NCBI RefSeq assembly: GCF_030758935.1
Contig: NZ_CP132333.1
Location: 3,224,992-3,288,991 of the forward strand
Reading direction: 5' to 3'
Source: Geothrix sp. PMB-07
GTDB lineage: Bacteria; Acidobacteriota; Holophagae; Holophagales; Holophagaceae
DNA length: 64,000 nt
Part shown: positions 8,950 to 41,875 of the stretch, piece after piece
How positions within the stretch are numbered: position 1 is the first letter of the stretch
Layout of the letters: the number at the start of each line of letters is the position of its first letter
Position numbers and translations under genes: made by a program
Notes under the pieces: model-generated
The model's input: the letters and a program-made list of their open reading frames with translations, nothing else
Databases searched by the model: none
What the model was told of the DNA's origin: nothing

Positions 8950-8951
8950 GC

Positions 8952-8982: not shown

Positions 8983-9019
8983 GTATCTAATCGGCAGACC
9001 CGATCAATCAATTCCAAAC

Positions 9020-9040: not shown

Positions 9041-9075
9041 AGCACCTCAGGAACCTTCCAGAACCTTCGGGGCCA

Positions 9076-11643: not shown

Positions 11644-11645
11644 GG

Positions 11646-13366: not shown

Positions 13367-13510
13367 TCAACCTCTCACCAGAGCATAGTAAACCGTCTGA
13401 ATCTTGCAATATGCGTTCGTTTTTGCTACATTTCTGACGCATTCTCGCATTACAAGACTGCGGAAGGGGTTGACCGTCACACAGCTCAATTGACTGACGA
13501 CACCGAGAAT

Positions 13511-17200: not shown

Positions 17201-17325
17201 TTATTTTCCCGCTTATGCCAATCGCCCAGGTAGCGGTAGCCCAGGTTGTCCGGGCGCTTAGGATCAGTAAATAGTGCAATGACGCGATCCTGGGTGTTGC
17301 GCTCGGAGCGGGGGAGGCGAGACAT
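14227..17325 (-). CDS. hsdR: Type I restriction enzyme R subunit (HsdR)
   Basis: A 1032-residue restriction/translocation subunit. The N-terminal nuclease domain has [19 protein letters not shown] at about 138-156, with Asp140, Glu154 and Lys156 forming the PD-(D/E)xK site. The SF2 motor has motif I TQGSGKS (285-291), motif II DECH (388-391) and VGFTGTPLL, then the second RecA lobe with [11 protein letters not shown] and CRTNR. It translocates DNA and cuts unmodified DNA. Its ATG overlaps the stop of the kwaB-like gene by one base, and its own stop overlaps the ygjP start. It is separated from hsdS by the Kiwa-like pair, an unusual position for foreign genes in an hsd operon. Confidence 0.95.
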
Positions 17326-18735: not shown

Positions 18736-18739
18736 GTAT

Positions 18740-20629: not shown

Positions 20630-23121
20630 GCCGCCCCCATCCGCTTGAGGTGATCCTTCACGCGGGTGGAAAGCATCTCTACCTCAGCCAGCAACTCCGG
20701 CAGAGGTGTGGCGTAACGCTGGGCCAACTCTCGGATCCGGCCCGTGAGGGTTTGAGAAACGCGATCCAACTCCCCCTGCACAGCGGCGGCAAGGTATGCC
20801 AACCACTTGTCTTCCACCACCAGGGTCTTGATCTCGGCCTCGGTGAGCTTGGGGTACCTTGCATCGATCTTCCGGTCCAGTTCCACCTGTGCGCCCTTGC
20901 GCTGTTCCTTGGTGTCCTTCTGCTTTTCCAGAAGGTCGGCGTAGGTCTTCAGGACTTCGCGCTCCTCGCGGTAGAGCGGATCTCTGCCGATCTCCTTCAA
21001 GCGATCCTTGACAGCCTTGGCCGTGATCTTCTGCTTGTCCCCTTCGCCTTCGATCACTTCCGCCAGCATCCCCTCTTCGCCGCTGTGCTCCTCCTTCAGT
21101 TCGTCGAGCTGCTGTTCCAGAGCGGCCAGCTCGTTATCCAGGGCTTCGATCGCGTCTCGCTCGGCCGCGAAGTACCGGGCCACCAGGATCGAAGCCGGGA
21201 TGAGGTCGGACTTGAAGCGCCGCCGACCTTTGAGGAAGTCGTGGGCATCGGGCCAGACCAGCTTGCCGTCCTTGTTCTTGATCTGGATGATCTCCCGGGG
21301 CTGGGCGCCCTCCACCCATCCTTCGCCACTGATGAGGTAGGCGTCGTCCTGCATCGTTTCCGCCCAGTAGTCCATCATGTGCTGGTAAAGGTCGTAGGCA
21401 TCCAGCAGAGGGTCCTTCCGGAAGGTGGCCAGCAGATCTTCGGACAGGGTTTCGATGAGGGCCTTGGGGTGGCTCTCCTTTTCGAATTCTGTGAGGTGGG
21501 GCCTATTGGCCGCGCGCCACTGGCCGAAGCGATCCAGCGCCTGCTGCTGGAAGGCCACGAATTCGGGATGACCCAGGATGGCCGCTTTTACCTCGGCTAT
21601 CGGGAGCTTCAGACGGGCGTAGCCCGCCCTCCCGGCCGAGTTGAAGAGGAAATCCCGCAACCCCGGCAGCACCTTCCAGTAGGGGGCTAGGGCGCTCTCG
21701 GGGGCATCCAGGTCGCGCTCGGGAATGCCGCCCCGCAGGTGACCGTCGATGTCCTGAAGATCCTCGGGATCGCTGCTATCGATGTAGCGTGGCAGATTGA
21801 GGTTGAAGTCGTTCTTGGGATCAGCGATCTCGCTGAAGGGCACCATGCGGGCATAGCGGGGATCGCTTGTATCCTGCTTCGTGAAGGTGTCCACGATCTT
21901 GTGGATGTCCTGTTCCCGCAGGCGGTTCTTGGCGCCGTCCTTCTTGAATCCTTTGCTGGCGTCGATCATGAACACGCCCTTGCGGGCAGCGGCGTTCTCT
22001 TTGTCCAGCACCAGGATGCAGGCCGGGATACCTGTGCCGAAAAAGAGGTTGGCGGGCAGGCCGATGATCCCCTTGAGGTAACCCGAGCGCACGAGCTGCT
22101 CTCGAATGACGGCCTCGGCATTACCCCGGAAGAGCACGCCGTGGGGCAAGATGCAGGCGCCTTTGCCGGTGCCCTTCAGGCTGCGGAGAATGTGCAGCAG
22201 GTAGGCGTAATCCCCCTGCTTGGCGGGCGGCTCACCCCAGGCAAAGCGCTGATAGGGATCGGCGGAAGGCGAAAGGCCATTGCTCCAGGTCTTGTCGGAA
22301 AAGGGAGGATTGGCCACCACGTAGTCGTAGGTGCGGAGCTGCTGGCCGTTTAGATTCAAGAACTTGGGCGAGGCTAGCGTGTTGCCCGACAGGATATTGG
22401 CCGTGGGGAAATCGTGCAGGATCATGTTCATGCGGGCGAGGCCGGCGGTGGTCACGTCCTTTTCCTGCCCTTCCAGGGTGATGTGCTTGCCCGCCTCGGT
22501 GGCCACCTTGAGGAGCAGGGATCCCGATCCGCAGGTGGGGTCGTAGGCCGTGGTGGAGGCCCTGGTGTTCTCGGGCGAGATGGCGATGACCTTGGCGATC
22601 ACCCGACTGACTTCGGAGGGGGTGTAGAACTGCCCCTTGCTCTTGCCGCTTTCTGTGGCGAAGTGACGCATCAGGTACTCGTAGGCATCGCCCAGGATGT
22701 CGTCGTGCTCGGCGCGATTCTTCGAGAAATCCAGCGCAGGGTTCTCAAAGATGGCGATCAGGTTGGAGAGCTTCTCCACCCGCTCCTTGCCCTCCCCCAG
22801 CTTGTTGGGGTCGTTGAAATCGGGAAAATCGCTTCGAGCCAATCGGCTATTGGCGTCAATGAGCGGCTGGATGACTTGTGTGTTGATCCGGTCCCCGATG
22901 TCGCTCTTGCCCTTGAGGGCCACCATGTCCTTGAAGCTCGCGCCCTTAGGAATGGCGATGGGAGGGGCGAAGGCCTCGCTGTTCCCATATTTGTCGGAGA
23001 CATACTTGACGAACAGCATGAATAGGACGTAATCCTTGTACTGGCTGGCGTCCATGCCCCCGCGCAGCTCGTCGCACGAGGCCCAGAGGGAGGAGTAGAG
23101 GTCGGATTTCTTGACGGCCAT
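20620..23121 (-). CDS. hsdM: Type I restriction N6-adenine methylase (HsdM)
   Basis: An 833-residue methylase subunit. It has an HsdM N-terminal helical domain (DLYSSLWASCDELRGGMDAS), the SAM motif DPTCGSGSL (194-202), and the catalytic NPPF (271-274) typical of adenine methylases. The C-terminal 300 residues include a Glu/Lys-rich coiled-coil region (about 640-740), making the protein much longer than the 500-residue E. coli form; this long type occurs with other hsd operons. Of three in-frame ATGs, I chose 23121 because AAGGAA precedes it and the sequence before it is atypical. It is the first gene of hsdM-hsdS-kwaA-kwaB-hsdR-ygjP. Confidence 0.93.
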   Translation of the reverse strand: MAVKKSDLYSSLWASCDELRGGMDASQYKDYVLFMLFVKYVSDKYGNSEAFAPPIAIPKGASFKDMVALKGKSDIGDRINTQVIQPLIDANSRLARSDFPDFNDPNKLGEGKERVEKLSNLIAIFENPALDFSKNRAEHDDILGDAYEYLMRHFATESGKSKGQFYTPSEVSRVIAKVIAISPENTRASTTAYDPTCGSGSLLLKVATEAGKHITLEGQEKDVTTAGLARMNMILHDFPTANILSGNTLASPKFLNLNGQQLRTYDYVVANPPFSDKTWSNGLSPSADPYQRFAWGEPPAKQGDYAYLLHILRSLKGTGKGACILPHGVLFRGNAEAVIREQLVRSGYLKGIIGLPANLFFGTGIPACILVLDKENAAARKGVFMIDASKGFKKDGAKNRLREQDIHKIVDTFTKQDTSDPRYARMVPFSEIADPKNDFNLNLPRYIDSSDPEDLQDIDGHLRGGIPERDLDAPESALAPYWKVLPGLRDFLFNSAGRAGYARLKLPIAEVKAAILGHPEFVAFQQQALDRFGQWRAANRPHLTEFEKESHPKALIETLSEDLLATFRKDPLLDAYDLYQHMMDYWAETMQDDAYLISGEGWVEGAQPREIIQIKNKDGKLVWPDAHDFLKGRRRFKSDLIPASILVARYFAAERDAIEALDNELAALEQQLDELKEEHSGEEGMLAEVIEGEGDKQKITAKAVKDRLKEIGRDPLYREEREVLKTYADLLEKQKDTKEQRKGAQVELDRKIDARYPKLTEAEIKTLVVEDKWLAYLAAAVQGELDRVSQTLTGRIRELAQRYATPLPELLAEVEMLSTRVKDHLKRMGAAWK

Positions 23122-23148
23122 GAAGTTCCTTGATTTATAGGCCATTGT

Positions 23149-23182
23149 AGAAGGGCAGGCCTTCGGAAGGCCCGCCCTTTCT
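23149..23182. terminator. Hairpin between radC and hsdM
   Basis: A long inverted repeat with arms AAGGGCAGGCCTTC / GAAGGCCCGCCCTTT (one A-C mismatch) folds into a strong stem. It lies just downstream of the radC stop in the direction of transcription and upstream of the hsdM start, so it probably separates radC from the restriction operon. The U-run after the stem is weak. Confidence 0.5.
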
Positions 23183-23219
23183 GCAATGTGACCAGTGTCG
23201 AGGAGACCAGGATCTCCTC

Positions 23220-23918
23220 TCAGTGGGAATCCCACCCCTCCGACGCCCGGAAGCTGTGCCAGCGGTCGCTGCCCAAGACCACATGGTCCGCCAGAGGCAC
23301 GCCCAGACTCTCACCGGCAGAGCGCAGACGGGTCGTGAGGGCCAAGTCCTCGCGGGAGGGGGTAGGATCCCCCGAGGGGTGGTTGTGCCAAGCCAAGGCC
23401 GTGGTGGCACCGAACCGGAGCGCTTCACGGAAGAACTCCCGGGGGCTGATGAGGGTCGCAGTGGCGGTGCCCTGGCTCAGGATGCGGTCAGCGAGCAGTT
23501 CGCCCTTGGCGTTGAGGGCCAGCATCCCGAAGCGTTCCTCAGTCCAGCCCTGGACCTTGGGCAGCAGGTAGCTTCCGGCGGCCCTGGGGGAGGAAATGCG
23601 GGGGCGTTCGAGGCTCCGAGTGGAGCGGCGCTGCACCTCCTGGAGGACCGCGAAGCGAGCCATCTCGCCCTTCGTGAGCCCAAGGGCCTGTAGTTCAGCA
23701 GGTCCCAGGGCTACCAGACGCCCCAGGTTCTCGACCTGGCGGAGGATCTCTTCGGCCCGCCCAGGACGGACGCGATTCAGCATGGCTTCGATGATCTGCG
23801 CATCCGAGAGGGATTCCGGCCCGTAGAGGGCGACGGTTTCGGAGACGGGGAAACTACGGATCTGCGCGGGAACGGTGGCGTTCGATTGATCGAAGAGGGG
23901 AAGGGTGGAAGATGTCAT
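23220..23918 (-). CDS. radC: RadC-family JAB-domain protein
   Basis: A 232-residue protein with the N-terminal helix-hairpin-helix-like segment of RadC (LSDAQIIEAMLNRV, then ALGPAELQALGLTKGE) and the C-terminal JAMM motif HNHPSGDPTPSREDLALT, whose two His and Asp residues bind zinc in the family. RadC-like proteins are common on mobile elements. Their role is unclear: the old DNA-repair assignment was withdrawn, and some members act as conjugation-linked proteins. The ATG at 23918 has CGGAGAAA upstream. A 260-bp stretch before it, up to the next gene, has no convincing gene. Confidence 0.88.
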   Translation of the reverse strand: MTSSTLPLFDQSNATVPAQIRSFPVSETVALYGPESLSDAQIIEAMLNRVRPGRAEEILRQVENLGRLVALGPAELQALGLTKGEMARFAVLQEVQRRSTRSLERPRISSPRAAGSYLLPKVQGWTEERFGMLALNAKGELLADRILSQGTATATLISPREFFREALRFGATTALAWHNHPSGDPTPSREDLALTTRLRSAGESLGVPLADHVVLGSDRWHSFRASEGWDSH

Positions 23919-24178
23919 GGCGTTTCTCCGTGCCCGCCGGATCGGGGCACGAAACCGCCGGGGCCCCCCGCTCCCCAGGGCCGGACCGGGAACGAACCGG
24001 GCAGCGCAGCGAACCGGGCAGAGAGCGGGTAGGGTCGCCGCGGCGCGGGATTAGGACATCCGGCAGTGCCCGCTCCGGCATGGGCAGGGACGCCACACCT
24101 CGCCCACCTTCTCCCACGAGAAAAGGCGCACGGAAGATCGCCTCCCGCGCGCCCTGACGCCATGTGCCCCTTCGAAAC

Positions 24179-24652
24179 CTAGGCCGGAGCCTCCTCCAAG
24201 GCTCCCGTTCCATCATCCCGGCTGATCTCCGGAAAGAAGTAGCCGATCACCTCCCAGGCCTCGGCCTCGTTGGAGTCTTCAGGGCCCTCCAGCAGTGCGG
24301 CTTGCACCACGGGGAGTGGCGATTCCTCACCCATGAGCGGTAGCACCACCCGCAGCACATCCGGCGAGATCATCCCAGTGGACATGAGCGCGTGAGCCAC
24401 ATCTCCCCAAGGAGCGGCCACCTCCTCCCGGAGATGCAGCACGATCTCCTCGTAGGGGAAACCATGCTGCTTCCATTCCTGGGCCTCCTCGGCCCAGGCC
24501 TGACGTTCGCGCAGCACCTCGGCGATCACCTCCTCCCCGATCCCCTCGCCCTGGAGGTCCACGACAATGTCGGCCCACCCCTCACCGTGGGCTCGACTGT
24601 CCTCGACCTGCTCCCGCGCATAGTCCATCCACCCCTGACCGCTCACAGCCAC
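24179..24652 (-). CDS. Acidic hypothetical protein coupled to the coupling-protein gene
   Basis: A 157-residue, strongly acidic protein (many Glu, Trp and Ala) that I do not recognise. It is predicted to be mostly helical, with three short repeats of a 'GxG/hxxEhhxxhL' kind (GEGIGEEVIAEVLRERQ, GFPYEEIVLHLREEV, GMISPDVLRVVLPLM). Translation probably starts at a GTG at 24652 inside the end of the TraG-like gene (10-nt overlap), behind GGGGGAGGAG. That coupling suggests a partner of DNA transfer. No signal peptide or membrane segment is visible. Confidence 0.6.
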   Translation of the reverse strand: MAVSGQGWMDYAREQVEDSRAHGEGWADIVVDLQGEGIGEEVIAEVLRERQAWAEEAQEWKQHGFPYEEIVLHLREEVAAPWGDVAHALMSTGMISPDVLRVVLPLMGEESPLPVVQAALLEGPEDSNEAEAWEVIGYFFPEISRDDGTGALEEAPA

Positions 24653-26499
24653 TCCTCCCCCGCCGGGACTACGAGCGCCTCGACGGAAGCGTGGGAGGTC
24701 ACCAGCTCTCCCGGAACCGGAAGCGGTTCGGGCTTCCAGTCCTCCGGCGTCACCTCCTGGAGGGCCTCCATCGCCAGCGCCTCGGCCTCCTCCCAGGGAT
24801 CCGCCGCCACCACCGGCTTACCAAGGGGCGTGTCCGGGATTTCGATGGGCACCGGGAACCAGTAGGTGTAGCCGTGAAGCCTCCCCAGGGCCACCCGAAG
24901 CTCTGACCACTGAGCCCAGGCATCCAGGGGCATGAGATCGGCTTCCTTGTCGGTCTCATTGGCGTTCTTGTTGGCCGGAGGAATACGGCGGGTGTACTTG
25001 CCGATGCCCGTAGAAAGCTGCTGACGAAGCTCATCCTCCAGGTTCCTGGCCAGCCAGACCCGGGTACCGAACCCCTTCATCACGGCCTTCCACTCATGGG
25101 GATAGACATTCTGGAGCAGGCCAAGGTTCTGGATCGCCGCCAGGATGGCCACCCCCCGAGTCCTCAGGAGCACGAGGGACTTCTGGATATTGGGAATGCG
25201 CCCGCAGTCCCCGAACTCGTCCATCAGGAGAAGGATCTTCGAGGAGCCCTGTGGCCGGTTGCGCAGCCGACCGAGCAGCATGGCCCAGAAGACATGGACA
25301 GGCACCTTCAGGGCGTCGCTGTCCTCGCAGTTCATGATGTAGCCGCCCCTGGCGATGAAGTCGTCCAGGGTGGCGGTGCTCCGACCTTCCGTGATGCTGC
25401 GGACCCGCTCCGTCTCCCACCGGCTCAACGTCACCACCAGGTCCTGAAGCACGGGAACTTGGCTCTTGGGTTCCTTCATTGTGTCCAGGTAGATGGGATC
25501 GAGCATGGCCAGGAAGGGCTCCAGCCGGGTCTTCCGGAGCGTCCGCGAGATCTCCTGGATGCTGTCCCAGCGATTCGAGCGCAGCACCGCCCCGAAGATC
25601 ACGCGGGCCATATCCCGGACCCAGGCGTTCGGATCGTTGGGATTCTTCGGGAAGAGGTAATCCACCAGCAGGTCGAAATCCTCGGTGCTGCGGATCTCCT
25701 CCAGAGGGTTCCAGACAAGACTGCGGGTGGCATACCCCCGCACATCGAGGCCGAACACAGGCCTGTCCTTGAAGGATTCGCGGAAGGGTAGTTCGGCCTT
25801 GCTGTCCTGGTAGATCCAGGGTACGAGGGACGAATACATGATGGGCGCATAGAAGCTCGCGGTCTTGCCCGAACCCTGGGGGCCCACCACGAGCATGTGC
25901 TGGCTGAGGATGTCCCACCGGAGGGACAAGAGGGTGAGGTCCCCCTCCCGATGCTGGCTGCCCCCCACCAGGCGACAGGCCAGCCTGGAAGGGCTGCGAT
26001 AGACCAGGATTTCCGCGGTAGGGCGAGGATCGAGGTAGGTCTTATCTCCCTCAACCCTGCGAATGCCCCAATCCTCGGGCACATCTCGGAACCTCGTGTC
26101 CGCAAGACCGACGCCCTTCTTCACATGCTTGGGCTCGCGGTCCCAGGTGACCCAGACCGCCACGGCGAGCATGGCCAGGGCGGCATGAATGGCCAGAAAG
26201 AGAAAGCCGTTCTCGTAGGCCCAGAGGACGAAGGTCCGCTGGCCGATGCCCCAGAACATGCCCGTGCCGAGGCCAAGAAGAGCCAGGCTCAGCGGAAGCA
26301 CCTTCGGGGACCGCCGATGCTGGAGCAGCCAGCGAGTGGGCCACTCGAAGCGGCGGTGAAGGAGTGCCAGCGGATTCTCGTGCTCCACGAAGTACCAGCG
26401 AATGAACACCCAGAGGAGCCCAAGGAGACCGAGGGGCATGAGCAGCCTGGCTCCCCAGGTCTTCCAGGCGAAAAGGAATTGGTAAACAACATCCGTCAT
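24643..26499 (-). CDS. VirD4/TraG-type conjugative coupling protein
   Basis: A 618-residue protein with three hydrophobic segments in the first 120 residues (about 16-36, 67-86 and 97-118), then an ATPase with Walker A GPQGSGKT (206-213) and Walker B LLLMDEFGDCG at about 396-406. The order membrane anchor then P-loop, with IPNIQKSLVLLRTRGVAIL after Walker B, matches type IV coupling proteins, which deliver the relaxase-DNA complex to a mating channel. The start overlaps the relaxase stop by 4 nt (ATGA). No channel genes are nearby, so it would have to serve a helper element's channel. That is inference. Confidence 0.88.
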   Translation of the reverse strand: MTDVVYQFLFAWKTWGARLLMPLGLLGLLWVFIRWYFVEHENPLALLHRRFEWPTRWLLQHRRSPKVLPLSLALLGLGTGMFWGIGQRTFVLWAYENGFLFLAIHAALAMLAVAVWVTWDREPKHVKKGVGLADTRFRDVPEDWGIRRVEGDKTYLDPRPTAEILVYRSPSRLACRLVGGSQHREGDLTLLSLRWDILSQHMLVVGPQGSGKTASFYAPIMYSSLVPWIYQDSKAELPFRESFKDRPVFGLDVRGYATRSLVWNPLEEIRSTEDFDLLVDYLFPKNPNDPNAWVRDMARVIFGAVLRSNRWDSIQEISRTLRKTRLEPFLAMLDPIYLDTMKEPKSQVPVLQDLVVTLSRWETERVRSITEGRSTATLDDFIARGGYIMNCEDSDALKVPVHVFWAMLLGRLRNRPQGSSKILLLMDEFGDCGRIPNIQKSLVLLRTRGVAILAAIQNLGLLQNVYPHEWKAVMKGFGTRVWLARNLEDELRQQLSTGIGKYTRRIPPANKNANETDKEADLMPLDAWAQWSELRVALGRLHGYTYWFPVPIEIPDTPLGKPVVAADPWEEAEALAMEALQEVTPEDWKPEPLPVPGELVTSHASVEALVVPAGEEWL

Positions 26500-28049
26500 C
26501 GTTCAACCTCCACGCCGCGAGATGCGGCATTAGCGACGGTTTGCGTGGTTTCGGCCGCCACCTCGGCGACCTTCGAGACGCTCCCCACGATGGGAAGCCA
26601 TCCGATCACTTGCAGGGCCCGGCGCACGGGCTCGGGGAGTTTGGCTGTCAGGCCAGCATTCCGAGCCGCCGTGGCGCCCAGGTCCGTGGCCCCTCCCGCC
26701 AGGGTTCTGCCCAGCGAAAGGGGAGAGAGGGTGACGAGATCCTTGGTGGCGCCTGCCGCCGTCCGGGCTGTCGTTGCGGCCATCTGGACTCCCGCCTGGA
26801 CCTCCTGGGGCAGCAGCTCACGGCTGCCTGCGGCCACAGCACGGCCAGCTCCCTTGCCCAGTTCGGCTCCAGTTCGAGCCGCACCGTGGCCAGCTTCCTT
26901 GCCGGCCTGGATCAGGTCCCGGCCAGCTTCTTTTCCGGCCACCTTCAGGGAGGCTCCAGCGGTCGGAAGGGCCGCCACCAGACCCGTGGCCAGCTTGACG
27001 GAGGCCTGACCCACATGGATCCCGCTCCGGGCTGCGGCTTTGGCCGCCTCCATGGAGGCCCGGAGCGTGGCCTGGGTCGCCTCCTGGGCAAGTACCAGAC
27101 CCGCACGACTCACTTTGCGGAGTGGGGCAGGAACCCCGAGTTCCTTCATGGCCTTGTCCAGGGCCATCCGTCCGACACGACCAGCCACTCGGGCCCCACG
27201 CTGCACCACGCGACCGCCCTGATCCACGGCCCGGCTGAAACGAGCCTTGGCCACGCCAAGCTCCCGGGAGGTCTCCCGCTTTTCCAGCCGACGCACGGCC
27301 CCCGTGCGGCGATGCTCCGCCTGCTCCAGCTCCGCCTGGTGCCGCGGGCTGCCGAGCATTCCCCGGGACTCGTAGCGGGCCCGCAGCGCGGCCGTCTCCG
27401 TCAGGAAGCGCCGCTCGATGAGGAGCCGAGCCTTCCGCTCGAAGGGCCGGGCAGCTTCGGCCTTGCGCCCGGGTGCGGCCCGTTTCACGGCCTCCCGGCG
27501 CTGGCGTTCGTTCTCCCTCTGCTCCCGGACGACCTCCTGGAGCCGGACCTTCTCCGCCTTGAACCGCTGATGGGCATCCCAGTCCTGGATCCTCGGTTCG
27601 TCCCCGAACAGCTCTCGATCCCAGTGCTTCTGCATGGACCCGTGGCGCCCCAGGGCCTGCTCGGGCATGCTCCCGCGCACGGCAATGTGAAAGTGGAAGC
27701 GCCCATCCTGCTCGTGGATGGCGAGAAGGTAGGGGCGGCCCTCGGCGTAGGCCTTGGCCAGGCGCTGGCCAGCCTCTTCTGCCGCCCTCGAAGGATCGGA
27801 AGGATTCCGCCCAAGGATCGTCCGACACTCCGCCTCAGAGGGGGCCACGATGATCTCGTGGTACGGTGCCGACTTCCCACCCATGGCCTCGATGCCTTGG
27901 GTCGGGGTGAGTTCGTGTCCCTCCATGCCCAGGAGCCGCGCCGAATCTCGCCCCTGCTGGGCTGCCAGGTAATGGGCTCGTCGGCTCAGACTGGGTGGAG
28001 TCGTGCGGCCCCGGAACCCAGGTTGAAAGCCGGGCTTGATGATGGCCAT
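26496..28049 (-). CDS. Relaxase/mobilization protein
   Basis: A 517-residue protein. HEQDGRFHFHIAV puts three histidines at residues 112, 119 and 121, matching the metal-binding motif III (HxDxxxxHxH-like) of MOB relaxases. Candidate catalytic tyrosines lie upstream (Tyr27 and Tyr63). The middle region (about 165-260) is a highly charged Arg/Glu helix. The C-terminal part (about 290-480) is Ala/Gly-rich with 11-residue-like amphipathic repeats (KEAGRDLIQAGKEAGHGAA). This nicks the transfer origin and pilots the strand. It is one base after the MobC-like gene and overlaps the coupling-protein start. The MOB class is not assigned. Confidence 0.78.
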   Translation of the reverse strand: MAIIKPGFQPGFRGRTTPPSLSRRAHYLAAQQGRDSARLLGMEGHELTPTQGIEAMGGKSAPYHEIIVAPSEAECRTILGRNPSDPSRAAEEAGQRLAKAYAEGRPYLLAIHEQDGRFHFHIAVRGSMPEQALGRHGSMQKHWDRELFGDEPRIQDWDAHQRFKAEKVRLQEVVREQRENERQRREAVKRAAPGRKAEAARPFERKARLLIERRFLTETAALRARYESRGMLGSPRHQAELEQAEHRRTGAVRRLEKRETSRELGVAKARFSRAVDQGGRVVQRGARVAGRVGRMALDKAMKELGVPAPLRKVSRAGLVLAQEATQATLRASMEAAKAAARSGIHVGQASVKLATGLVAALPTAGASLKVAGKEAGRDLIQAGKEAGHGAARTGAELGKGAGRAVAAGSRELLPQEVQAGVQMAATTARTAAGATKDLVTLSPLSLGRTLAGGATDLGATAARNAGLTAKLPEPVRRALQVIGWLPIVGSVSKVAEVAAETTQTVANAASRGVEVER

Positions 28050-28050
28050 C

Positions 28051-28515
28051 TCAACCCTCCCCGCGAAGGGTCTGGAGCTTGGCCTTACCGGAGGCGGTGA
28101 TGTCCCCCGCCCGTGGGCTCGACTCCACTACGCCCATCAGGTAGGCGTAGGTGTGCTGGCAGAGGCTCACCGTCACCGCCAGCGTCTGGAGGATCTGCGC
28201 CTCTCGCTCGGCTTGGCCCTCCTCCACCTTGCGGATGATCGCCACCAGGGCCTCGATACGGGTGGCATGGCGAGCCTGTTGCTCGATGACTCCAGTGAGA
28301 GTCCGAGCGAGGGCATCAAGCCGCGGCCCAAAGGCCTCTTCCGCCATGCGCTCTCGTGCGTCGCCCAGAAGGTTCTTCAGCGCCTGCGTGCGGCTTACCC
28401 CCTGCCGCCGCGCAAGCTCCTCCAGCACGCCACTGTTCTCGGCACCCACTCGTGCATGCACCACATTGCTGGCATCGCTTCCACCCAGCACTGATCGGCT
28501 TTTCCGTTCGTTCAT
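28051..28515 (-). CDS. MobC-like relaxosome accessory protein
   Basis: A 154-residue protein beginning MNERKSRSVLGGSDAS. Its N-terminal third (VVHARVGAENSGVLEELARR, then a QGVSRTQAL segment) reads as a ribbon-helix-helix DNA-binding domain and the rest as a long helix, as in MobC/TraJ-type accessory proteins that bind the transfer origin. The open frame is longer, but ATG 28515 has CAGGAG upstream and the earlier part is Cys/Trp-rich noise. The gene is one base before the relaxase gene, the usual mobC-mobA order. Confidence 0.65.
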   Translation of the reverse strand: MNERKSRSVLGGSDASNVVHARVGAENSGVLEELARRQGVSRTQALKNLLGDARERMAEEAFGPRLDALARTLTGVIEQQARHATRIEALVAIIRKVEEGQAEREAQILQTLAVTVSLCQHTYAYLMGVVESSPRAGDITASGKAKLQTLRGEG

Positions 28516-28570
28516 GTTGCAGCTCCTGTTGCGTTCACTGCATCGCGCCACGCGAATGCACCACTCCCAA

Positions 28571-28681
28571 CCTGTCGAAAGACAGGGCGTTGCCCATCGG
28601 GCGCCACAGTCACGCGCCACGCCGAACTTGCCACCCAAAGGGTTCGATCTTTCAATCGCCTTGCATCACCCTTCGTGCAAG
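28571..28681. promoter_or_regulatory. Candidate transfer origin (oriT) region with two inverted repeats
   Basis: The 286 bp between the MobC-like gene and the AlpA-like gene hold no plausible gene. They contain the hairpin CCTGTC-GAAA-GACAGG (28571-28586) and the inverted repeat CTTGCA...TGCAAG (28660-28681). An inverted repeat just upstream of a mobC-relaxase operon is the usual place for oriT. The nick site cannot be assigned from sequence alone. Confidence 0.4.
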
Positions 28682-28801
28682 CTCAGGGTAAGAGTTCGTC
28701 GCTTCTGGTCAATCAGCCAAAAGCAATTGAACCAACCAGATACAACAAGAACCAACAGGACCCATCTGGAATTCGGCTGGCAGGAGCCTCCTGATCGTCT
28801 A

Positions 28802-29110
28802 CTACCCGCGATTCTTCTCGACAAAGGCTCGCAGCTCACTCTCAGTGAAGAGAAGGCGCCGTCCAATGCGAACTGGGGTGAGCAAACCTGATTTCAGAAG
28901 GACATAGACGGAGGACCGTGAAATCCCCAGAATCCTTCCGGCATCCCTCACTCCATAGACCATGGGCTGAATACCGTCCAAGAGCTTCGTTCCAGTGGGT
29001 TCTGGTTTTGGCTTCTCTACAGGTTTTTCGACGGGCTTCTCGACAGCCCTCGCAGTCCGACTTCCCTGAACTTCTTCGATATCAATTGTCATCGTCACCA
29101 GGTAACGCAT
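28802..29110 (-). CDS. AlpA/excisionase-like HTH protein
   Basis: A 102-residue protein. After a short N-terminus and a Lys/Pro linker (EKPVEKPVEKPKPEP at about 27-41) comes a helix-turn-helix: VYGVRDAGRILGISRSSVY then LLKSGLLTPVRIGRRLLFTE, the classic excisionase/AlpA pattern of helix-turn-helix plus a basic wing. I chose the ATG at 29110 with GGAGGAT upstream; the longer open frame has an atypical N-terminus. It lies at the head of the mobilization operon, which suggests a regulator of transfer or a recombination directionality factor. Confidence 0.75.
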   Translation of the reverse strand: MRYLVTMTIDIEEVQGSRTARAVEKPVEKPVEKPKPEPTGTKLLDGIQPMVYGVRDAGRILGISRSSVYVLLKSGLLTPVRIGRRLLFTESELRAFVEKNRG

Positions 29111-29442
29111 AGGGCATCCTCCTCGTTCCCCAGGAGTCCCACTGAAGTGTTCCTGGTGGCGAGTCAAGGTAGACCAACATCGGTTGGGTTTCAGGGGAAA
29201 TGCGGGGATCTCGGCCTTCCTCCCAGCCAAATTCTCCCCCCTCCATTCAGCCTCGCCTCATTTCCGTCATGGCAGAGCAAGAGCGGTCGCTGGAAGAGGG
29301 ACGCAAAGCGAAACGGCCTCCAAGGGGAAGGGTTCCCTCCGAGAGGCCGCCTTGGGTAATCCAACCAATCAATAGGTCATAATCACAGGCACCCGGTCCA
29401 CAGCCAACCAAGAGACCGCCCCCAGTAGAGCCGGAGAGCAGC
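29111..29442. other. Divergent intergenic region before the Mrr gene
   Basis: This 332-bp gap separates the minus-strand AlpA-like gene from the plus-strand Mrr gene, so it should contain both promoters. Short open frames of 60-70 codons overlap each other in all frames without good starts. No repeats or RNA gene were recognised. Confidence 0.4.
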
Positions 29443-30633
29443 ATGGCTGAGCCCAAAGAGTATGTCGTCCGAACTCCCCTCTTCCCGAGCTACTCGGATG
29501 TATACAAGTTGATGGACATCATGGCCGGTGCTACCACGAAGGCAGATTTCCTCGACTTTCTGAATACCATCTGGGATCAAACCGGCACACCACAGAACCC
29601 CGTTGACTGGAGCAACCCGGATGAGTGGATCGGCGAACGGCTTACCGGGTCAGCCCGGAAACTGGCACAGCGAATCTGGGATGAAAGCTCTAATACTGTG
29701 AATCCGCGCCATGTGTATGGCGCTTATCTCTTCATCAATACCTATGACCTGCTCAGTCCAGACACAAGCGGGATTTATCGGCTTTCCAAGATTGGGGCCG
29801 CATTTAAGGCGAATGATCCTACTGTCGTTCGAAAATTGGACGAGGCAGAGGGCCTCCCCAAACTCCTAACCATCCTGGCCGCTCATTCACCAGCCAAGCG
29901 TGGGGACTTGCTCGATGAATGGGGCGAGTTCCTGCTTGCAAACTCTAAATTCGGGACACCCTCGACCATAAAAGACACCCTGCGCCGAAGAATCCAGAAC
30001 CTAGTCAAGCGTGGCTACATTAGTCGCGAAGGCAATACCTACACGATCACTGATAAGGGCATAGCCTACGCCACCGACACCACTACCCCTGCCGCCCAAC
30101 AACCTCACCATCTGGTGCTGAGCTCGATAAAGCAATATAACGACGCGCAGAGCAAGGCCCTGCGTGAACGGCTCGGCAAGATGAACCCCTACCGTTTCGA
30201 GGGTCTAATCAAGGATCTGCTGGAGGCGATGGACTACGAAGATGTGGTGGTCACAAAGCAGAGTGGTGACAAGGGTATTGACGTGGTGGCGCACTTCCAG
30301 TTCGGCATCACCCAGATCAAGGAGGTGGTACAGGTCAAACGCCAGCAGGGTTCGATCACCCGCCCTATCATCGACCAGCTGCGCGGCGCTTTGCCCTATC
30401 ACCAGGCCATCCGCGGCACCGTCATAACCCTGGGACGTTTTGCCAAGGGCTGCGAGGATGCAGCCCTATTCCCTGGCGCCGCACCAATCACTCTTATTGA
30501 TGGCGACAAGCTCATGGAGTTGCTTCTGAAGCATGGCGTCGGCGTGAAGAAGCGGCCCCAAACGTTGATCGAAATTGATGAAACCTATTTCGCCGCCATT
30601 GAGAACGAGGCGGATATCGACGCCGCCGAGTAG
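29443..30633 (+). CDS. mrr: Mrr-type restriction endonuclease
   Basis: A 396-residue protein. The C-terminal nuclease domain has FEGLIKDLLEAMDYEDV (Glu253), GDKGIDVVAHF (Asp280) and VQVKRQ (Gln297-Lys299), giving the D-(Q)xK site of the Mrr branch of PD-(D/E)xK nucleases. The middle section (about 140-205) is a winged helix (TIKDTLRRRIQNLVKRGYI then GNTYTITDKG), like the Mrr N-terminal domain. An additional N-terminal domain (1-130) is unassigned. Mrr enzymes cut methylated DNA (type IV restriction). ATG 29443 has AGAGCAGC upstream. The gene is on the opposite strand to the mobilization operon and looks like independent cargo. Confidence 0.85.
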   Translation: MAEPKEYVVRTPLFPSYSDVYKLMDIMAGATTKADFLDFLNTIWDQTGTPQNPVDWSNPDEWIGERLTGSARKLAQRIWDESSNTVNPRHVYGAYLFINTYDLLSPDTSGIYRLSKIGAAFKANDPTVVRKLDEAEGLPKLLTILAAHSPAKRGDLLDEWGEFLLANSKFGTPSTIKDTLRRRIQNLVKRGYISREGNTYTITDKGIAYATDTTTPAAQQPHHLVLSSIKQYNDAQSKALRERLGKMNPYRFEGLIKDLLEAMDYEDVVVTKQSGDKGIDVVAHFQFGITQIKEVVQVKRQQGSITRPIIDQLRGALPYHQAIRGTVITLGRFAKGCEDAALFPGAAPITLIDGDKLMELLLKHGVGVKKRPQTLIEIDETYFAAIENEADIDAAE

Positions 30634-30809
30634 CCTAGCCCCTTCATCCCGGGATTTTGGTGAGAGTGGGGGGGTTCAGGCCTTCCTGAAAGTGCGTTTC
30701 CCCTCCCCCCATAGGCTGTCTTCAGCCCTGCCCCATACCTTCCTGCTGAGGGGCAAGAGTGCTCATGTGGTCATCACCATTTCTCTTGGTAAGCCACTCC
30801 ATAGACTCT

Positions 30810-32315
30810 TCAGGACCCTGCTAAGGCCTCATTCTGGTCATGCGTTTCTCTCTCCTCATCAGGAAGGGTTCGCAGGTGTTTTTTCAATGAGGCGGAGGCT
30901 CTCAGAAATACCATTGCGAGCCTCTCAGGATCTTTGGTCGTTCGTAGACACCGAAGCAGGATTTCGTTCTCCGCCTTGGTCCAGGGTTCCCAGGCTCTTC
31001 GATAACTCTTACGTACTGTCCTCTGTTCCTCCTTTAATACAGTATCAGGTCTCATTAGTGGGCAGTTCACGAACCCCTTGCGCGTCTCTTCCAAAAGCGT
31101 CTCCCCTTCAATCCGATCGGGCACGGCAGGGACAATTCGCACTGAAGCCCACGACTCGAAGTCAGGGTTCAACATGTCCGCAAGCAGGTCTGGAGCAGGC
31201 TTCATGTCTGTGCTTGCTAAGGACCCAAACAATTCATACTCTCGGACGCTTGCAGGCCAACCTTCCACGAATACGCCCAGAAGTACACATGCCCCGGATT
31301 TTGGAGTGACCGAGATCCCTAGCTCCATCAGACGATCGAACATTCGCATCCGATCATCGTTACGGGAGATTGGCTCCATCTCCGTTAGTAGCTTAGATGA
31401 GGGCGGATGGGTGAGGAATGGAACGATCAGAAATTTTAACTGCTTTCGGAGGAGCTTTGGAAACCGCGATTTTGAAAGTATTCCGAAGCAGGAGAGCTGC
31501 TCGGAGATCCTTCGAACCCGGGTTAGTTGTGTGCCCTGGAGGACGCGGGCTACAAACGTATACGTCGGGTAAGGCAGGATGGTCCTGATTTCGGCAATGT
31601 AGGCTCCCATCTTTTCTGGGGTAAGCAGCGCCTCTAATTCCGGTTCGACCAGGTCTTCCAATGAGCCATTTCGATTGAGCGCATCGGATGAATCGCTGGT
31701 TACGCCGACCTCAATCTCGCATTCCTCTAATTCCGTGTCCTCACCAATAGCTTCTGCGGATTCTGGGGCTCCATTGATCAATTCGATAGCCAGCTCTCGA
31801 AGGTTCTCTGGCAAATCTAGATTTCGGAACTCCGGCCAAGCGGTGATGGCGTCTACAAGCTCCAACCCAGCTTCCCAGGGGTCTCGGAATAGCTCCGTTG
31901 CGCTGAATCGATAGATTCGATAGCCCAATCGTTGGAGTTCTCGTTCCCGTCTTCGCTCATATTCAAATTGTTTCGAATTACGATCGTGATAGCTGAATCC
32001 ATCGCATTCGATAATGACTTTGGCACCGGTTTCTTTTTGAATCACCACGAAATCCGGTTTGTATTTTACAGACCCACAGACTCGCTCAACTTCGATGGGC
32101 TGCTGTTGCAAGATCTGGAGATTGCCATGGAAGACCTCCTTCCAGAGGAGGATCCGAATCACAAAGGCCAGGAGTTCTTCGGGCGGCGAATCCCCCGTTG
32201 CGAATTCTTCAAAAATTCGAGGAAGCCAAAATCGAGAAAAGAACTGGGCCCCTTGGTCGAATAGGTCCTTCTTCAGGACCTCCAATCGGGTCCCAGAACC
32301 AGCTATATTGCTCAC
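30810..32315 (-). CDS. Orphan protein with N-terminal DUF559/Vsr-like endonuclease fold
   Basis: A 501-residue protein. The N-terminal 150 residues carry KPDFVVI (Asp88), KVIIECDGFSYHDRN (Glu103, Asp105) and a RRRERELQRLGYRIYRFSATE helix, which is the arrangement of DUF559/Vsr-type PD-(D/E)xK nucleases. The remaining 350 residues are not recognised; an acidic stretch lies at about 185-215, then helical segments and a Trp-containing block near 445-455. Translation starts at a GTG (32315) behind GGGG. It converges on mrr with a 176-bp gap. It could be a stand-alone defence nuclease; no known system name can be attached. Confidence 0.65.
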   Translation of the reverse strand: MSNIAGSGTRLEVLKKDLFDQGAQFFSRFWLPRIFEEFATGDSPPEELLAFVIRILLWKEVFHGNLQILQQQPIEVERVCGSVKYKPDFVVIQKETGAKVIIECDGFSYHDRNSKQFEYERRRERELQRLGYRIYRFSATELFRDPWEAGLELVDAITAWPEFRNLDLPENLRELAIELINGAPESAEAIGEDTELEECEIEVGVTSDSSDALNRNGSLEDLVEPELEALLTPEKMGAYIAEIRTILPYPTYTFVARVLQGTQLTRVRRISEQLSCFGILSKSRFPKLLRKQLKFLIVPFLTHPPSSKLLTEMEPISRNDDRMRMFDRLMELGISVTPKSGACVLLGVFVEGWPASVREYELFGSLASTDMKPAPDLLADMLNPDFESWASVRIVPAVPDRIEGETLLEETRKGFVNCPLMRPDTVLKEEQRTVRKSYRRAWEPWTKAENEILLRCLRTTKDPERLAMVFLRASASLKKHLRTLPDEERETHDQNEALAGS

Positions 32316-32497
32316 CGAAACCCCTAAATCGTTCCTATCGATTTATTTGAAGCTGAAGATGAGTGCACATCATCACGACTTCCTAAGCACTTGCGACATA
32401 TGGAGCCCACTCCGAGATGTGGGGTTTGGTTGGTATTTAGGGTTATTTGATGCTCCTTTCGCTCAATGTTTCGCCCTTTCAAGACCGTTCATTAATT

Positions 32498-32526
32498 ATA
32501 TATGTTCACAATTCGTGAACATATAT
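32498..32526. promoter_or_regulatory. Perfect palindrome upstream of the AbiE-type toxin-antitoxin
   Basis: Arms ATATATGTTCAC (32498-32509) and GTGAACATATAT (32515-32526) are perfect complements around a 5-nt spacer. A further GTTCAC lies at about 32587. The whole 305-bp gap (32316-32620) is AT-rich and otherwise empty. The antitoxin encoded just downstream has a winged-helix domain and related antitoxins repress their own promoter, so this is a likely operator. The link is inference. Confidence 0.6.
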
Positions 32527-32620
32527 TTTTTTTGAACAAACCCTTGACCAATTCCCGTTTCAACGCGATGTTCATTATTGAATTACGTTCACGGATCAAG
32601 GACATCGCAAGGGATTGAAC

Positions 32621-33631
32621 ATGATCATTCATCGAGAAGTTGAGCTGATAGATGCCGCCCTGGCGCGATTCGAGGCTCAGACCGGACTCCAGGCCATCCG
32701 TGAACCGATTGAAGACCACCTAGGCCCGGATGGGCGAGTCAGGATCATCGACGGTCCTCGCCAATGGGTCTTCGACGTGGAGTGCAAGAACCGGGTGGAC
32801 CGACTGGCCATGCTCCACGGCGTACAAGCTCAAATCCAGGGATTCGCGAACGCGGGCCTGCTCATGGTTCCTTACCTGGCCCCCGAGTTGGCCCGGCAGT
32901 GCCAGAGCATCGGGTTGCCCTTCATGGACGCCGCCGGGAATGCCTTCCTCAAAAGGGAGGGCCTCTACGCCCTGGTGACAGGACAAAAACCCGACAAGGC
33001 GCTGCTGCGGCCCGAGAAGCCCATGCGCGCTTTCGATCGGACTGGCCTTAGGGTGGTCTTCGCTCTCCTGGCAGCCCCCAAGCTAGTGCAAGCCCCCTAT
33101 CGAGACCTGGCCAAAGCGGCGGGCGTGGCGCTGGGAACGGTGGGCTGGATCCTGACGGATCTCCGGGAACATGGCTTCCTGGTGGACATCGTGGGCGAGC
33201 GCCGCTGGATCGACCGTCAGCGCGTCATCCAAGCCTGGACGACCAACTACCCCCTTCGCCTGCGCGAACGCCTGCGCGTTCGCCGCTTTGCAGCCAAGGA
33301 CGACACCTGGTGGGAGAACGCAAACCCAGGGGCCTTCGGTGGCTTCTGGGGAGGGGAGATAGCCGCGGCCAAGCTGCATGGCGATCTGATCCCCAAGACC
33401 GTCACGATCTACCTTCCCGAGGACCGGAAGGATTTCCTGGCGAAACATCGGCTCCGAGCGGATCCCCAGGGTCTCATCGAAGTGCTGGATGTCTTCTGGG
33501 ACTTCCCCCCTGCACCGGAAATCCCCGAAGGCATCGCGCCCCCGCTATTGGTCTATACGGACCTCCTGACCATCGGAGATCCTCGCACCCTGGAGGAAGC
33601 CCGGAGGATCCATGACCACTACCTGGCTTGA
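32621..33631 (+). CDS. AbiEi-type antitoxin/transcriptional regulator
   Basis: A 336-residue protein. The N-terminal half has a nuclease-like fold (FDVECKNRVDRLAMLHGVQAQ) without a clear full catalytic set. A winged helix follows at about 145-195 (YRDLAKAAGVALGTVGWILTDLREHGFL), and then the C-terminal domain of AbiEi-like antitoxins (PGAFGGFWGGEIAAAKLHGDLIP). The partner downstream is a nucleotidyltransferase-like toxin, overlapping by 20 nt. In such type IV pairs the antitoxin acts against the toxin and represses the operon. I chose the ATG at 32621, with AAGGG 7 nt upstream; a TTG two codons earlier has poor spacing. Confidence 0.78.
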   Translation: MIIHREVELIDAALARFEAQTGLQAIREPIEDHLGPDGRVRIIDGPRQWVFDVECKNRVDRLAMLHGVQAQIQGFANAGLLMVPYLAPELARQCQSIGLPFMDAAGNAFLKREGLYALVTGQKPDKALLRPEKPMRAFDRTGLRVVFALLAAPKLVQAPYRDLAKAAGVALGTVGWILTDLREHGFLVDIVGERRWIDRQRVIQAWTTNYPLRLRERLRVRRFAAKDDTWWENANPGAFGGFWGGEIAAAKLHGDLIPKTVTIYLPEDRKDFLAKHRLRADPQGLIEVLDVFWDFPPAPEIPEGIAPPLLVYTDLLTIGDPRTLEEARRIHDHYLA

Positions 33632-34484
33632 CCTCAAGCGCCCCTTGGACCTGCGTCTGGACCGATTGCTGCGGGACCTGGACGATCTCTTCCGGAGCCG
33701 AGGTATCGACTACCTGCTCACGGGCGGAATGGCCCGCGAGATCCTGTTGTATTACGGCCACGGCTGCGCGACGGGCCGCGCCACCAAAGACGTGGACTTC
33801 GGCGTCACCCTGTCCTCCTGGGAAGACTACGAGACCTTGCGCTCAGCCCTGGTGGGCACAGGAACCTTCCGGCCCGACCCCAAAGAAACCCAGCGAATGA
33901 TCCATCGGGATCCCGGTACGGGACTCGAAACCAAAGTGGATCTCGTGCCCTTCGGCGCCATCGCCGGACCCGATGGAGCCCTGGCTTGGCCTCCTGATGG
34001 CAGCCATTTGATGCGCGTCCTGGGCTACCCCCAGGCACTCGCATCCGCCATTCATCTTCGTCTGGACGAAACAAAATGGGTGCCCCTGGCCTCAGGTCCA
34101 GGGCTGGCCTGCATGAAGCTGGTCGCCTGGATGGACCGGGGCGACGCCAGGTTGGGCCGCGATGCTGTGGACTTCATGGAACTCCTCCACCAGTATTCCC
34201 ACGTGCTCACCGACCAGGAACTGTACGACAGCCATCCGGATGCCATGGATCGCTATGATTTCAGGGCAGAACCCGCCGCCGCCTTCATCCTTGGCAAGCA
34301 GGTGGCACATCTCGCAGACGACCGGCTGCGCGACGTGATCAGCGAAGCGCTGGAACCGCCGTCCATGCAGAAGATGCTGGACTACTTCCTGCGGGAACGA
34401 GACTCCCAGGATTCCAGTGCCCGTCTGGAAGAAGCCGCACGCCTACTAGAGGCCTTCAAGACTGGATGGAAAAGCATAGAATAG
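33612..34484 (+). CDS. AbiEii-type nucleotidyltransferase toxin
   Basis: A 290-residue protein with a nucleotidyltransferase core: YLLTGGMAREILL (GG motif, about 36-48) and TKDVDFGVTL (two metal-binding acidic residues, about 59-68). A third acidic residue is probably in KVDLVPFG. The pattern matches AbiEii/MenT-type toxins, which add nucleotides to tRNA and stop growth or phage multiplication. The start lies inside the antitoxin gene (20-nt overlap). The antitoxin-first order is typical. Confidence 0.78.
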   Translation: MTTTWLDLKRPLDLRLDRLLRDLDDLFRSRGIDYLLTGGMAREILLYYGHGCATGRATKDVDFGVTLSSWEDYETLRSALVGTGTFRPDPKETQRMIHRDPGTGLETKVDLVPFGAIAGPDGALAWPPDGSHLMRVLGYPQALASAIHLRLDETKWVPLASGPGLACMKLVAWMDRGDARLGRDAVDFMELLHQYSHVLTDQELYDSHPDAMDRYDFRAEPAAAFILGKQVAHLADDRLRDVISEALEPPSMQKMLDYFLRERDSQDSSARLEEAARLLEAFKTGWKSIE

Positions 34485-34542
34485 ACTCCTCCAGATCGAT
34501 CCCAACCTCATCCTTCTCATGTTTTCCAACCTAGGAGCCACA

Positions 34543-34962
34543 ATGCAGGAACCTTTTGGTATCGACAAAAGCATCAGCTTTAATGATTTCCAAATAGCAG
34601 CTACGACCTTGCAGAAGGATCTTGTATCGGGGCGGGAACTACAAATCGAAACTCTTTGGCTCTTCGCCAGTGCATTGGCCAAGCACGGTCTTACGAGCCC
34701 TGCAGGTTGGCTCGATCTAGGCCATCAAATCCTCACAGAGTTTGGCTGGCCCAACGCCGGGATCATCCTTCAGGGAATCATGGAATCTGGCGATCCGGAC
34801 TTCTTCCGCAACGCAATTTCAACCCTGAAGAAAAAAGGAACTCCTTTCATCTCGGAATACATCGGTCGACAGCGTGTCTCTGAACTTCACGCCCAAAATA
34901 AGATCACTGATACGATCCAAGATTTGTACAACCAAGCGGGTCGTGGCATTGAATGGGCATAG
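34543..34962 (+). CDS. Hypothetical protein downstream of the toxin-antitoxin pair
   Basis: A 139-residue soluble protein with no known motif. It is mostly helical and reads WLDLGHQILTEFGWPNAGII in the middle; there is no signal peptide or membrane helix. I chose the ATG at 34543 because CTAGGAG precedes it; an in-frame ATG at 34519 has no ribosome site. It lies 58 bp after the toxin gene in the same direction, so it may be co-transcribed. Whether it belongs to the toxin-antitoxin function is unknown. Confidence 0.55.
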   Translation: MQEPFGIDKSISFNDFQIAATTLQKDLVSGRELQIETLWLFASALAKHGLTSPAGWLDLGHQILTEFGWPNAGIILQGIMESGDPDFFRNAISTLKKKGTPFISEYIGRQRVSELHAQNKITDTIQDLYNQAGRGIEWA

Positions 34963-35015
34963 TCCATCTAAGCACCAGTCCTTCGGAGTCGTTCAGAATA
35001 GCCCTTGGGACTGAC

Positions 35016-36296
35016 TCATTCTGACAAACGCAACAGCGGCGATAGCTGGCGGATCGTGTCCGTGACGTACTTCTTCGCCAAGTGGCCGTAGTGCTTGTCC
35101 ACCATACGCGTACCCTTGTGGCCAAGCTGCTCAGCCACCACGGCCAACGGCACGCCAGCCATGATCAGCGTTGAAGCATAGGTATGCCTCAGTTCGTGGA
35201 AGGAGAGACCGTCTTCGATCCCAGCGTCCTTAACCGCCTGGTTCATTGGTCGAACCTGGTGGCCGCGCTTCCATTCCTCGCCCCCTTCCGTCAGGAACAT
35301 GCGCTCGGACTTCTTCCGGCCTTCCACGATGTCCTTGAAAAAGGCAATGCCCTCATCGCTGAGCGCAATGTAGCGACTCTCTTCTGACTTCGTTTCGGAA
35401 GTCACGAAAACCTGCCCGGTGCGCTCATGGAAATCTCGAACATGCATGAGTCGGGACAACTCGCCGTAGCGCGCCCCTGTGAACAGCGCCGCCTGGACAA
35501 GTTTCTTGAAATAAGGCGGGCAGACGTTCACCAGCGTCTTCTGGTCATCGACAGACAGGAACCGAAGCCGGGCGCTATCGGCCTTCCTGAACGGTTTGAC
35601 CATCCGCCAAGCCGTATTCGGACAACTCACTCTCTCCATTTCCAAGGCCTTGTTCAGAGCCGCTTTCAACACTGTCAGGATTCGGTTGGCGGTACTTCTC
35701 CGGCGGCGCTTGGCCTCAAAATCGTCAGGCAATTCCCGGAACCGCTGCTCAGCGCTTTTGGCGGTGCGCAGTCTCGCGGGCGTATCTGCGAGATCCTCGA
35801 ACCACTCCTGGATTAGTGACCTTGTAAGCTTCTCAACCAAGTGGTCGCCGAAAGCGGGAAGGATGTGGGCATTGATCACGCGGAGCGTGTCCTTGCTGGC
35901 ACGGCCACCGGCCTTCTCGTAGCTGCTCATGTAGTCCGCCATGCATTTGCGCACGGTGTACGGCTCTTTCGGAGCCCCTGAGGCTGGAGCAGCAAGCGCC
36001 TCTGCCTCGGCCTTACGCCATGCCAAAGCAGCTTCCTTCGCCTCGCCGTAGGTCAGGGTCTTGATATGTGCCGGAGCCCCGCTGTCATCGGCAAAGCCGA
36101 TGTCCTTCTGCTTCCGGGGTGGCTTGGCCTCGGGGAGGTAGTACTTGGCGTACCAAACCCCACCGCGCTTTCCCCGGCGATACCCAAGGGCGCATCCCTC
36201 CTCGATCACCTCCCAGTAGGGCTCATGGCGCGGCTTGCAGTTCTTTGCCCGAGCCGTGGGGGTGTCCATCTTGGGGGTGGCTTGTCTCTTGGCCAT
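35016..36296 (-). CDS. int: Tyrosine integrase of the tRNA-Glu element
   Basis: A 426-residue site-specific recombinase (counted from the ATG at 36296, which has AGAGGA upstream; a longer frame begins 7 codons earlier with poor spacing). Catalytic residues in order: Arg in TGARYGEL (R276), His-Arg in HELRHTY (H367, R370), His in QLGHKG (H393) and the nucleophile Tyr in HYGH (Y403). The N-terminal part has a lysine/arginine-rich arm-binding segment (GKRGGVWYAKYYLP) and a SAM-like core-binding domain. The gene starts 35 bp from a pair of arm-site-like repeats and 166 bp from the right attachment repeat, so it is the integrase of this element. Confidence 0.95.
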   Translation of the reverse strand: MAKRQATPKMDTPTARAKNCKPRHEPYWEVIEEGCALGYRRGKRGGVWYAKYYLPEAKPPRKQKDIGFADDSGAPAHIKTLTYGEAKEAALAWRKAEAEALAAPASGAPKEPYTVRKCMADYMSSYEKAGGRASKDTLRVINAHILPAFGDHLVEKLTRSLIQEWFEDLADTPARLRTAKSAEQRFRELPDDFEAKRRRRSTANRILTVLKAALNKALEMERVSCPNTAWRMVKPFRKADSARLRFLSVDDQKTLVNVCPPYFKKLVQAALFTGARYGELSRLMHVRDFHERTGQVFVTSETKSEESRYIALSDEGIAFFKDIVEGRKKSERMFLTEGGEEWKRGHQVRPMNQAVKDAGIEDGLSFHELRHTYASTLIMAGVPLAVVAEQLGHKGTRMVDKHYGHLAKKYVTDTIRQLSPLLRLSE

Positions 36297-36330
36297 GGTC
36301 ATCCTCTGGGTGACCATCCTGCCAGAGAAT

Positions 36331-36350
36331 TTACTGCAAACTTACTGCAA
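36331..36350 (+). repeat. Right pair of TTACTGCAA repeats, candidate integrase arm sites
   Basis: TTACTGCAA at 36331-36339 and 36342-36350, 11 nt apart, matching the pair at 9020/9032 at the other end. They lie between the integrase start and attR, so integrase binding here could also repress its own promoter. Confidence 0.65.
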
Positions 36351-36461
36351 ACCGATATTGAGCCTTCAGGGGCCGCCCAGAACCATCCTGATTATTTGTT
36401 TCTTGTTTTTCATATATTTACAAAATTGCTCACAAATCCAGGAAGGGTCAGAAAGGGTCAT

Positions 36462-36513
36462 ACACCGCCCTTTCACGGCGGTAACACGGGTTCAAATCCC
36501 GTTAGCCCTACCA
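36462..36513 (+). repeat. Right attachment repeat (attR), 3' half of tRNA-Glu
   Basis: An exact copy of tRNA-Glu positions 8898-8949. It has the anticodon arm, T-arm and CCA but no acceptor 5' strand or D-arm, so it is not a tRNA gene. It marks the right end of the element. Confidence 0.93.
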
Positions 36514-41842: not shown

Positions 41843-41875
41843 TGCATCTCCCCAGTTCCGGATACCCTGGGCTTT

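Follow-up and report, generated by a model that had tools for sequence, protein, structure and literature searches.

Nucleases of the Vsr/DUF559 type belong to a lineage that includes homing endonucleases such as I-Bth0305I as well as the repair enzyme Vsr. Bax1 works with XPB, and DUF4011-type anti-phage proteins employ the MTES_1575 nuclease as one of their domains; among DNA-binding domains, RQC binds duplex and branch junctions in RecQ. Phage EDxHD homing enzymes combine a nuclease with tethered DNA-binding modules (PMC3943268), and winged-helix modules follow the nuclease domain in MTES_1575 itself (PMC3710099).

We analysed a stretch of 64,000 nucleotides from Geothrix sp. PMB-07 (contig NZ_CP132333.1, positions 3,224,992 to 3,288,991; hereafter the window), which holds a gene for a 501-residue nuclease inside an integrative element. 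The gene is real and its catalytic family is known, while the architecture of its product is new and rare. Features of the window are collected in Table 1.

Table 1. Location of the nuclease gene, its segments and the surrounding features, in window coordinates.
Feature	Position	Strand	Basis or remark
Integrative element in tRNA-Glu	8898..36513		Bounded by 52-bp direct repeats
Variable cargo segment (mrr + nuclease gene), 3.1 kb	29355..32500		The sibling element of G031 has ~164 unrelated bp instead
Convergent Mrr-type restriction endonuclease (PADLOC PDC-S02)	29443..30633	(+)	Mrr_cat 2.3e-26; PDC-S02 2.2e-180
501-aa nuclease with RecQ-tail-like C-terminal half	30810..32315	(-)	ORF, Pfam, codon statistics
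Myb/SANT-like W-x-E helix-turn-helix, residues ~432-484	30864..31022	(-)	HTH profile; weak Myb matches of the Persicobacter relative
RQC-like segment, residues 254-283 (FVARVLQGTQLTRVRRISEQLSCFGILSKS)	31467..31556	(-)	RQC profile against shuffles and natural frames
Catalytic PD-(D/E)XK domain, residues ~40-164	31824..32198	(-)	Pfam PF18741/PF04480, conserved columns, model
AbiEi/AbiEii type IV toxin-antitoxin pair	32615..34484	(+)	Pfam
Tyrosine integrase of the element	35016..36317	(-)	Pfam; 95% identical in G031

The nuclease gene and its catalytic domain

The original prediction, made from the sequence of the window, had described an orphan 501-residue protein with a DUF559/Vsr-like core, and both the reading frame and the core were borne out. 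The frame opens with GTG, just 3' of an AGGGG motif, and measures 510 codons from stop to stop, compared with a maximum of 469 in random controls (n = 300, 9 kb each, matched to the regional trinucleotide composition); the GC content by codon position (0.592/0.404/0.548) follows the pattern of coding genes. Overall GC content was 0.515 for the nuclease gene versus 0.551 for mrr, 0.62 for AbiE and 0.64-0.69 for the transfer genes, and because it lies below that of its neighbours the gene is probably of its own origin.

Pfam matched residues 67-157 of the protein to PF18741 (MTES_1575; 52.1 bits against a curated cut-off of 38.2, E 7e-14) and PF04480 (DUF559; 27.6 bits against 20.6). Alignment with 22 phage and bacterial relatives placed the beginning of the domain earlier, at a helix with the motif S43-x-x-E46, which is followed by D88, E103-C-D105-G, H110 and R123. 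Residues E46, D88, E103, D105, H110 and R123 were common to all 23 rows of the alignment, the ECDG..[YF]H columns having belonged to the search pattern and the other conserved columns not. That pattern, ECDG[FY]x[YF]H, was set for distant nuclease relatives by artificial decoy rows aligned with the query, which served as a search device and not as evidence. In a model built from the alignment with the 22 nuclease homologues, the core reached pLDDT values of 70-96, and its best PDB neighbour was the DUF559 structure 3hrl (Z 9.8, rmsd 2.1 over 94 residues), which was also reached by a sequence profile (E 2.4e-15); other neighbours were the I-Bth0305I catalytic domain (3r3p, Z 9.2), Bax1 (Z 8.0) and Vsr (1cw0, Z 7.9). 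On sequence and model, we regard the prediction of an intact Vsr/DUF559-type PD-(D/E)XK domain as firm. The catalytic domain alone does not tell defence from homing or repair.

Searches for relatives supported the orphan status of the whole protein. No full-length homologue was found in 93 genomes of the class or in a 396-genome sample of the phylum, both of which yielded nuclease-domain matches only, and tblastn with loose limits against plasmids and phages returned only a C-terminal relative from Persicobacter plus weak matches at chance level or to the nuclease alone. Scans for close relatives with the single sequence gave no match, and scans of genome contigs and viral contigs, restricted to sequences with an exact short motif, gave no full-length relative. 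With no whole-protein homologue, neither conservation nor recurrent association with defence is demonstrable. The nearest domain relatives in the whole-genome search were the C-terminal nucleases of frames of 1.5-1.9k residues, and stand-alone phage relatives of the same nuclease core exist. Literature searches on the domain combination of the protein turned up nothing specific.

Weak resemblance of the C-terminal half to RecQ tails

The original prediction had called the C-terminal part of the protein unassignable. This stood for the domain libraries, since residues 160-501 had no convincing assignment in Pfam or NCBIfam, but did not wholly hold for two stretches that weakly resemble the tail of RecQ. 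Inspection by eye suggested that residues 253-283 (TFVARVLQGTQLTRVRRISEQLSCFGILSKS) recall the RQC motif of RecQ, and a profile built from 16 RecQ proteins scored 12.1 bits on the query, compared with 9.0 for the best of 3000 shuffles; this match spans only ~30 residues, lies below Pfam detection and concerns a family picked by eye before testing. Among 3345 natural frames, the query was the top frame after the RecQ helicases (12.0 bits), the next scoring 8.1 bits. Nearer the C-terminus, a profile search with the query and the Persicobacter protein pointed to RecQ helicases that have an AYEKWS-x-EED helix-turn-helix (HTH) at the end of the tail. The HTH profile scored 13.2 bits on the query (shuffle maximum, 9.0; next natural frame, 7.0 with the Persicobacter relative set aside), a test that is partly circular because the RecQ tails had been found by a profile that included the query. 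The RQC-like segment and the HTH follow one another in RecQ order and at similar spacing (186 versus 210 residues), with an hhalign probability of 78.6%. An HRDC profile built from 15 sequences did not have the query among its listed matches, and Pfam scans of the 501-residue protein found no DEAD/Helicase_C core or other helicase. No RQC-type RecQ was detected in the organism's own genome or in any genome of the same genus that was searched, and a resident RecQ is therefore unlikely as donor of the RQC-like module.

A reading of the C-terminal half as a RecQ-like DNA-binding tail without its helicase is plausible from these comparisons, and DNA-binding modules in this half are weakly supported. 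The original prediction had held that a helicase accessory domain here would tell against a defence system of a new kind, and the weak, shuffle-controlled similarity of the RQC and W-x-E HTH stretches to RecQ tails comes near to such a domain. A single-sequence AlphaFold model of the protein was uninformative (mean pLDDT 36), and in the homologue-based model the HTH reached ~62 and residues 184-444 were mostly below 50, for which reason we make no fold claim for the latter; the whole model gave no PDB match in Foldseek at E <= 0.001. We also suspected that the C-terminal half repeats itself internally, but rejected this because 1071 of 2000 shuffles were equally good.

The Persicobacter relative is a 240-residue plasmid protein (L004, 5821-6543) that shares query residues ~325-478 at 25% identity, including the EPW-x-x-x-E HTH (blastp E 4e-8 when these two alone were compared; none of 2000 shuffles did equally well). 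It matches Myb models weakly, is without the nuclease domain, has no adjoining nuclease gene and possibly represents a new small DNA-binding family. A C-terminal profile that included it found no confirmed viral relative. The W-x-E HTH was also seen in other settings: in two RecQ helicases (L031, L075) HRDC is followed by an additional W-x-E HTH and by HTH_40, and three small proteins of 116-122 residues (L029, L035, L037) have this HTH on its own.

The integrative element and its variable cargo

The nuclease gene lies in an element delimited by identical 52-bp repeats at 8898-8949, the 3' end of tRNA-Glu, and at 36462-36513; tRNA-Lys and tRNA-Glu together occupy 8787-8949 (ARAGORN). The ends of the element were set here because the repeat is exact, the integrase lies next to it and a 47-base core of the repeat has no other occurrence in the genome. 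The element carries a coupling protein, a weak relaxase match, a RadC protein and a type I restriction-modification system (HsdM/S/R), together with KwaA/KwaB, mrr, the nuclease gene and AbiEi/AbiEii. The presence of type I restriction-modification, Kiwa, Mrr and AbiE between the repeats upheld the earlier description of the element as rich in defence genes. Within the type I operon, the Kiwa pair (17325-18786) is flanked by HsdS and HsdR. Defence genes continue past the attachment site, with PD-Lambda-5 A/B and a second Mrr-type nuclease of PDC-S02 immediately beyond the element at 38535-43087. Next to the tRNA end of the element, an 855-residue ORF (9076-11643) has no Pfam match and a relative of 53% identity in another genome (G001, L114). 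An AT-richer stretch (12001-13000, GC 0.46) holds a 287-residue ORF (12503-13366) with no Pfam or PADLOC match.

As had been noted from the sequence, the nuclease gene is convergent to mrr; 176 bp separate the two stops, and the genes are not in one operon because they are convergent. A sibling element in a related genome, G031, has the integrase as well as AbiEi and AbiEii at 82% and 90% identity, respectively, and is without both mrr and the nuclease gene, which identifies the two as a variable cargo segment, perhaps acquired or deleted in one piece. On its left, this segment ends within a stretch rich in inverted repeats, and its right border lies at a palindrome (GTTCACAATTCGTGAAC) upstream of abiEi. 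The 12-bp-stem palindrome at 32498-32526 (ATATATGTTCACAATTCGTGAACATATAT), upstream of abiEi and close to this border, has a core that is conserved in G031 and is a likely AbiEi operator. Four congeneric genomes have the relaxase of the element at 89-92% identity, and others have it at 46-66%; sibling elements in several related genomes were observed to carry different cargo. Relatives of mrr at 46-51% identity were found in Vibrio, E. coli and Salmonella records. An obligate partnership of the nuclease with mrr was unsupported, as the two neighbourhoods of mrr relatives that were checked (one in E. coli, one in Vibrio) held no relative of the nuclease.

Possible functions and comparison with known systems

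Our preferred reading, to which we give an even chance, is that the protein acts on its own as a DNA endonuclease and forms part of the defence-type cargo of a tRNA-integrated mobilisable element. The RQC-like winged-helix segment and the Myb-like HTH of the C-terminal half would bind DNA, by structure or by sequence, and would thereby position the metal-dependent N-terminal nuclease on invading DNA, which it would nick or cleave with no need for ATP, a helicase or other motor, or a partner protein. Self DNA might be spared through modification, through DNA structure or through low activity until triggered. The targets, the self-protection and the defence role of the nuclease are those that we infer from context. 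The bolder proposal of the original prediction, a new type of single-gene defence, found no support here: the protein has no whole-protein match in PADLOC, there are no homologue neighbourhoods to compare, and its lineage includes homing and repair enzymes. Among known single-gene defence systems, PADLOC matched only PDC-S37 and Hhe, each through the nuclease part. In a narrower form, namely an anti-phage nuclease of new build in which a Vsr/DUF559 cutter is steered by a RecQ-type tail to attack particular structures such as replication or recombination intermediates of invading DNA without a motor, we consider the idea rather unlikely. If our preferred reading is right, it would show that a cutting domain in the defence cargo of a mobile element can take RecQ-type recognition modules directly, with no motor involved, and would provide a small, ATP-independent nuclease design; at present the rarity of the protein limits the weight of the finding.

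The strongest alternative is a free-standing homing endonuclease of the EDxHD/Vsr type. Its grounds are a predicted catalytic fold equally near to I-Bth0305I and to DUF559 3hrl, and the empty allele present in the sibling element of G031. Such an enzyme would cut copies of the element that are without the segment, repair would then copy its gene and the neighbouring gene into them, and the C-terminal modules might, by analogy with NUMODs, provide specificity for a long site. The stand-alone phage relatives of the core and the layout shared with phage EDxHD enzymes (PMC3943268) point the same way. The unit of presence and absence includes mrr, however, the empty allele is a replacement by unrelated sequence rather than a clean insertion site, and the gene is not within an intron or a conserved gene, so we give this explanation a modest minority share of the probability. 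Were it correct, this would be an unusual case of a homing enzyme carried in a defence segment. That the protein instead serves as the nuclease subunit of a separate helicase supplied in trans is an unlikely arrangement, suggested by the large frames to which the nearest domain relatives belong, by partial matches to PDC-S37, Hhe and ProA and by Bax1 among the fold neighbours, but no helicase gene adjoins the nuclease gene, mrr and abiE are oppositely oriented to it and no RQC-type RecQ was found in the genome.

A Vsr-like repair or housekeeping nuclease of the element, acting for example on recombination or transfer intermediates, would be consistent with Vsr among the closest folds and with RQC and HTH modules that suggest binding of special DNA structures. 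The gene is absent, however, from sibling elements whose relaxases are 89-92% or 66% identical, and is thus not needed for element function; with no cytosine methylase partner identified beside it, this role seems improbable. We hold it very improbable that the gene is a decaying fusion without function, as its want of a homologue and a GC3 unlike that of its neighbours might suggest, given that the 501-codon frame is open, the conserved nuclease residues are all intact and codon periodicity is maintained.

Whichever of these roles it has, the protein can be set beside known systems part by part. DUF559/MTES_1575 nucleases, such as 3HRL and the stand-alone phage DUF559 endonucleases, share its catalytic domain, conserved residues and predicted fold, but at ~95-300 residues they are without the 340-residue C-terminal half found here. 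DUF4011-type SF1 helicase-nucleases (Hhe, ProA, PDC-S37) have a nuclease domain of the same family, although the present protein has no helicase, is 501 rather than ~1500-1900 residues long and scores far below the whole-protein cut-offs (ProA, 20.4 versus 1500; Hhe, 16.8 versus 2000), PDC-S37 being matched by its nuclease end only. I-Bth0305I is a near neighbour of the predicted catalytic fold (Z 9.2, tied with 3hrl) and is alike in the layout of a nuclease with tethered DNA-binding modules; here, in contrast, the nuclease is N-terminal, and there is no intron and no known cut site. The C-terminal tail of RecQ, as in L031 and L075, consists of RQC, then HRDC, then a W-x-E HTH, and our protein resembles it in the order and spacing of an RQC-like segment and a W-x-E HTH, with a nuclease in place of the helicase core, the zinc-binding domain and a detectable HRDC.
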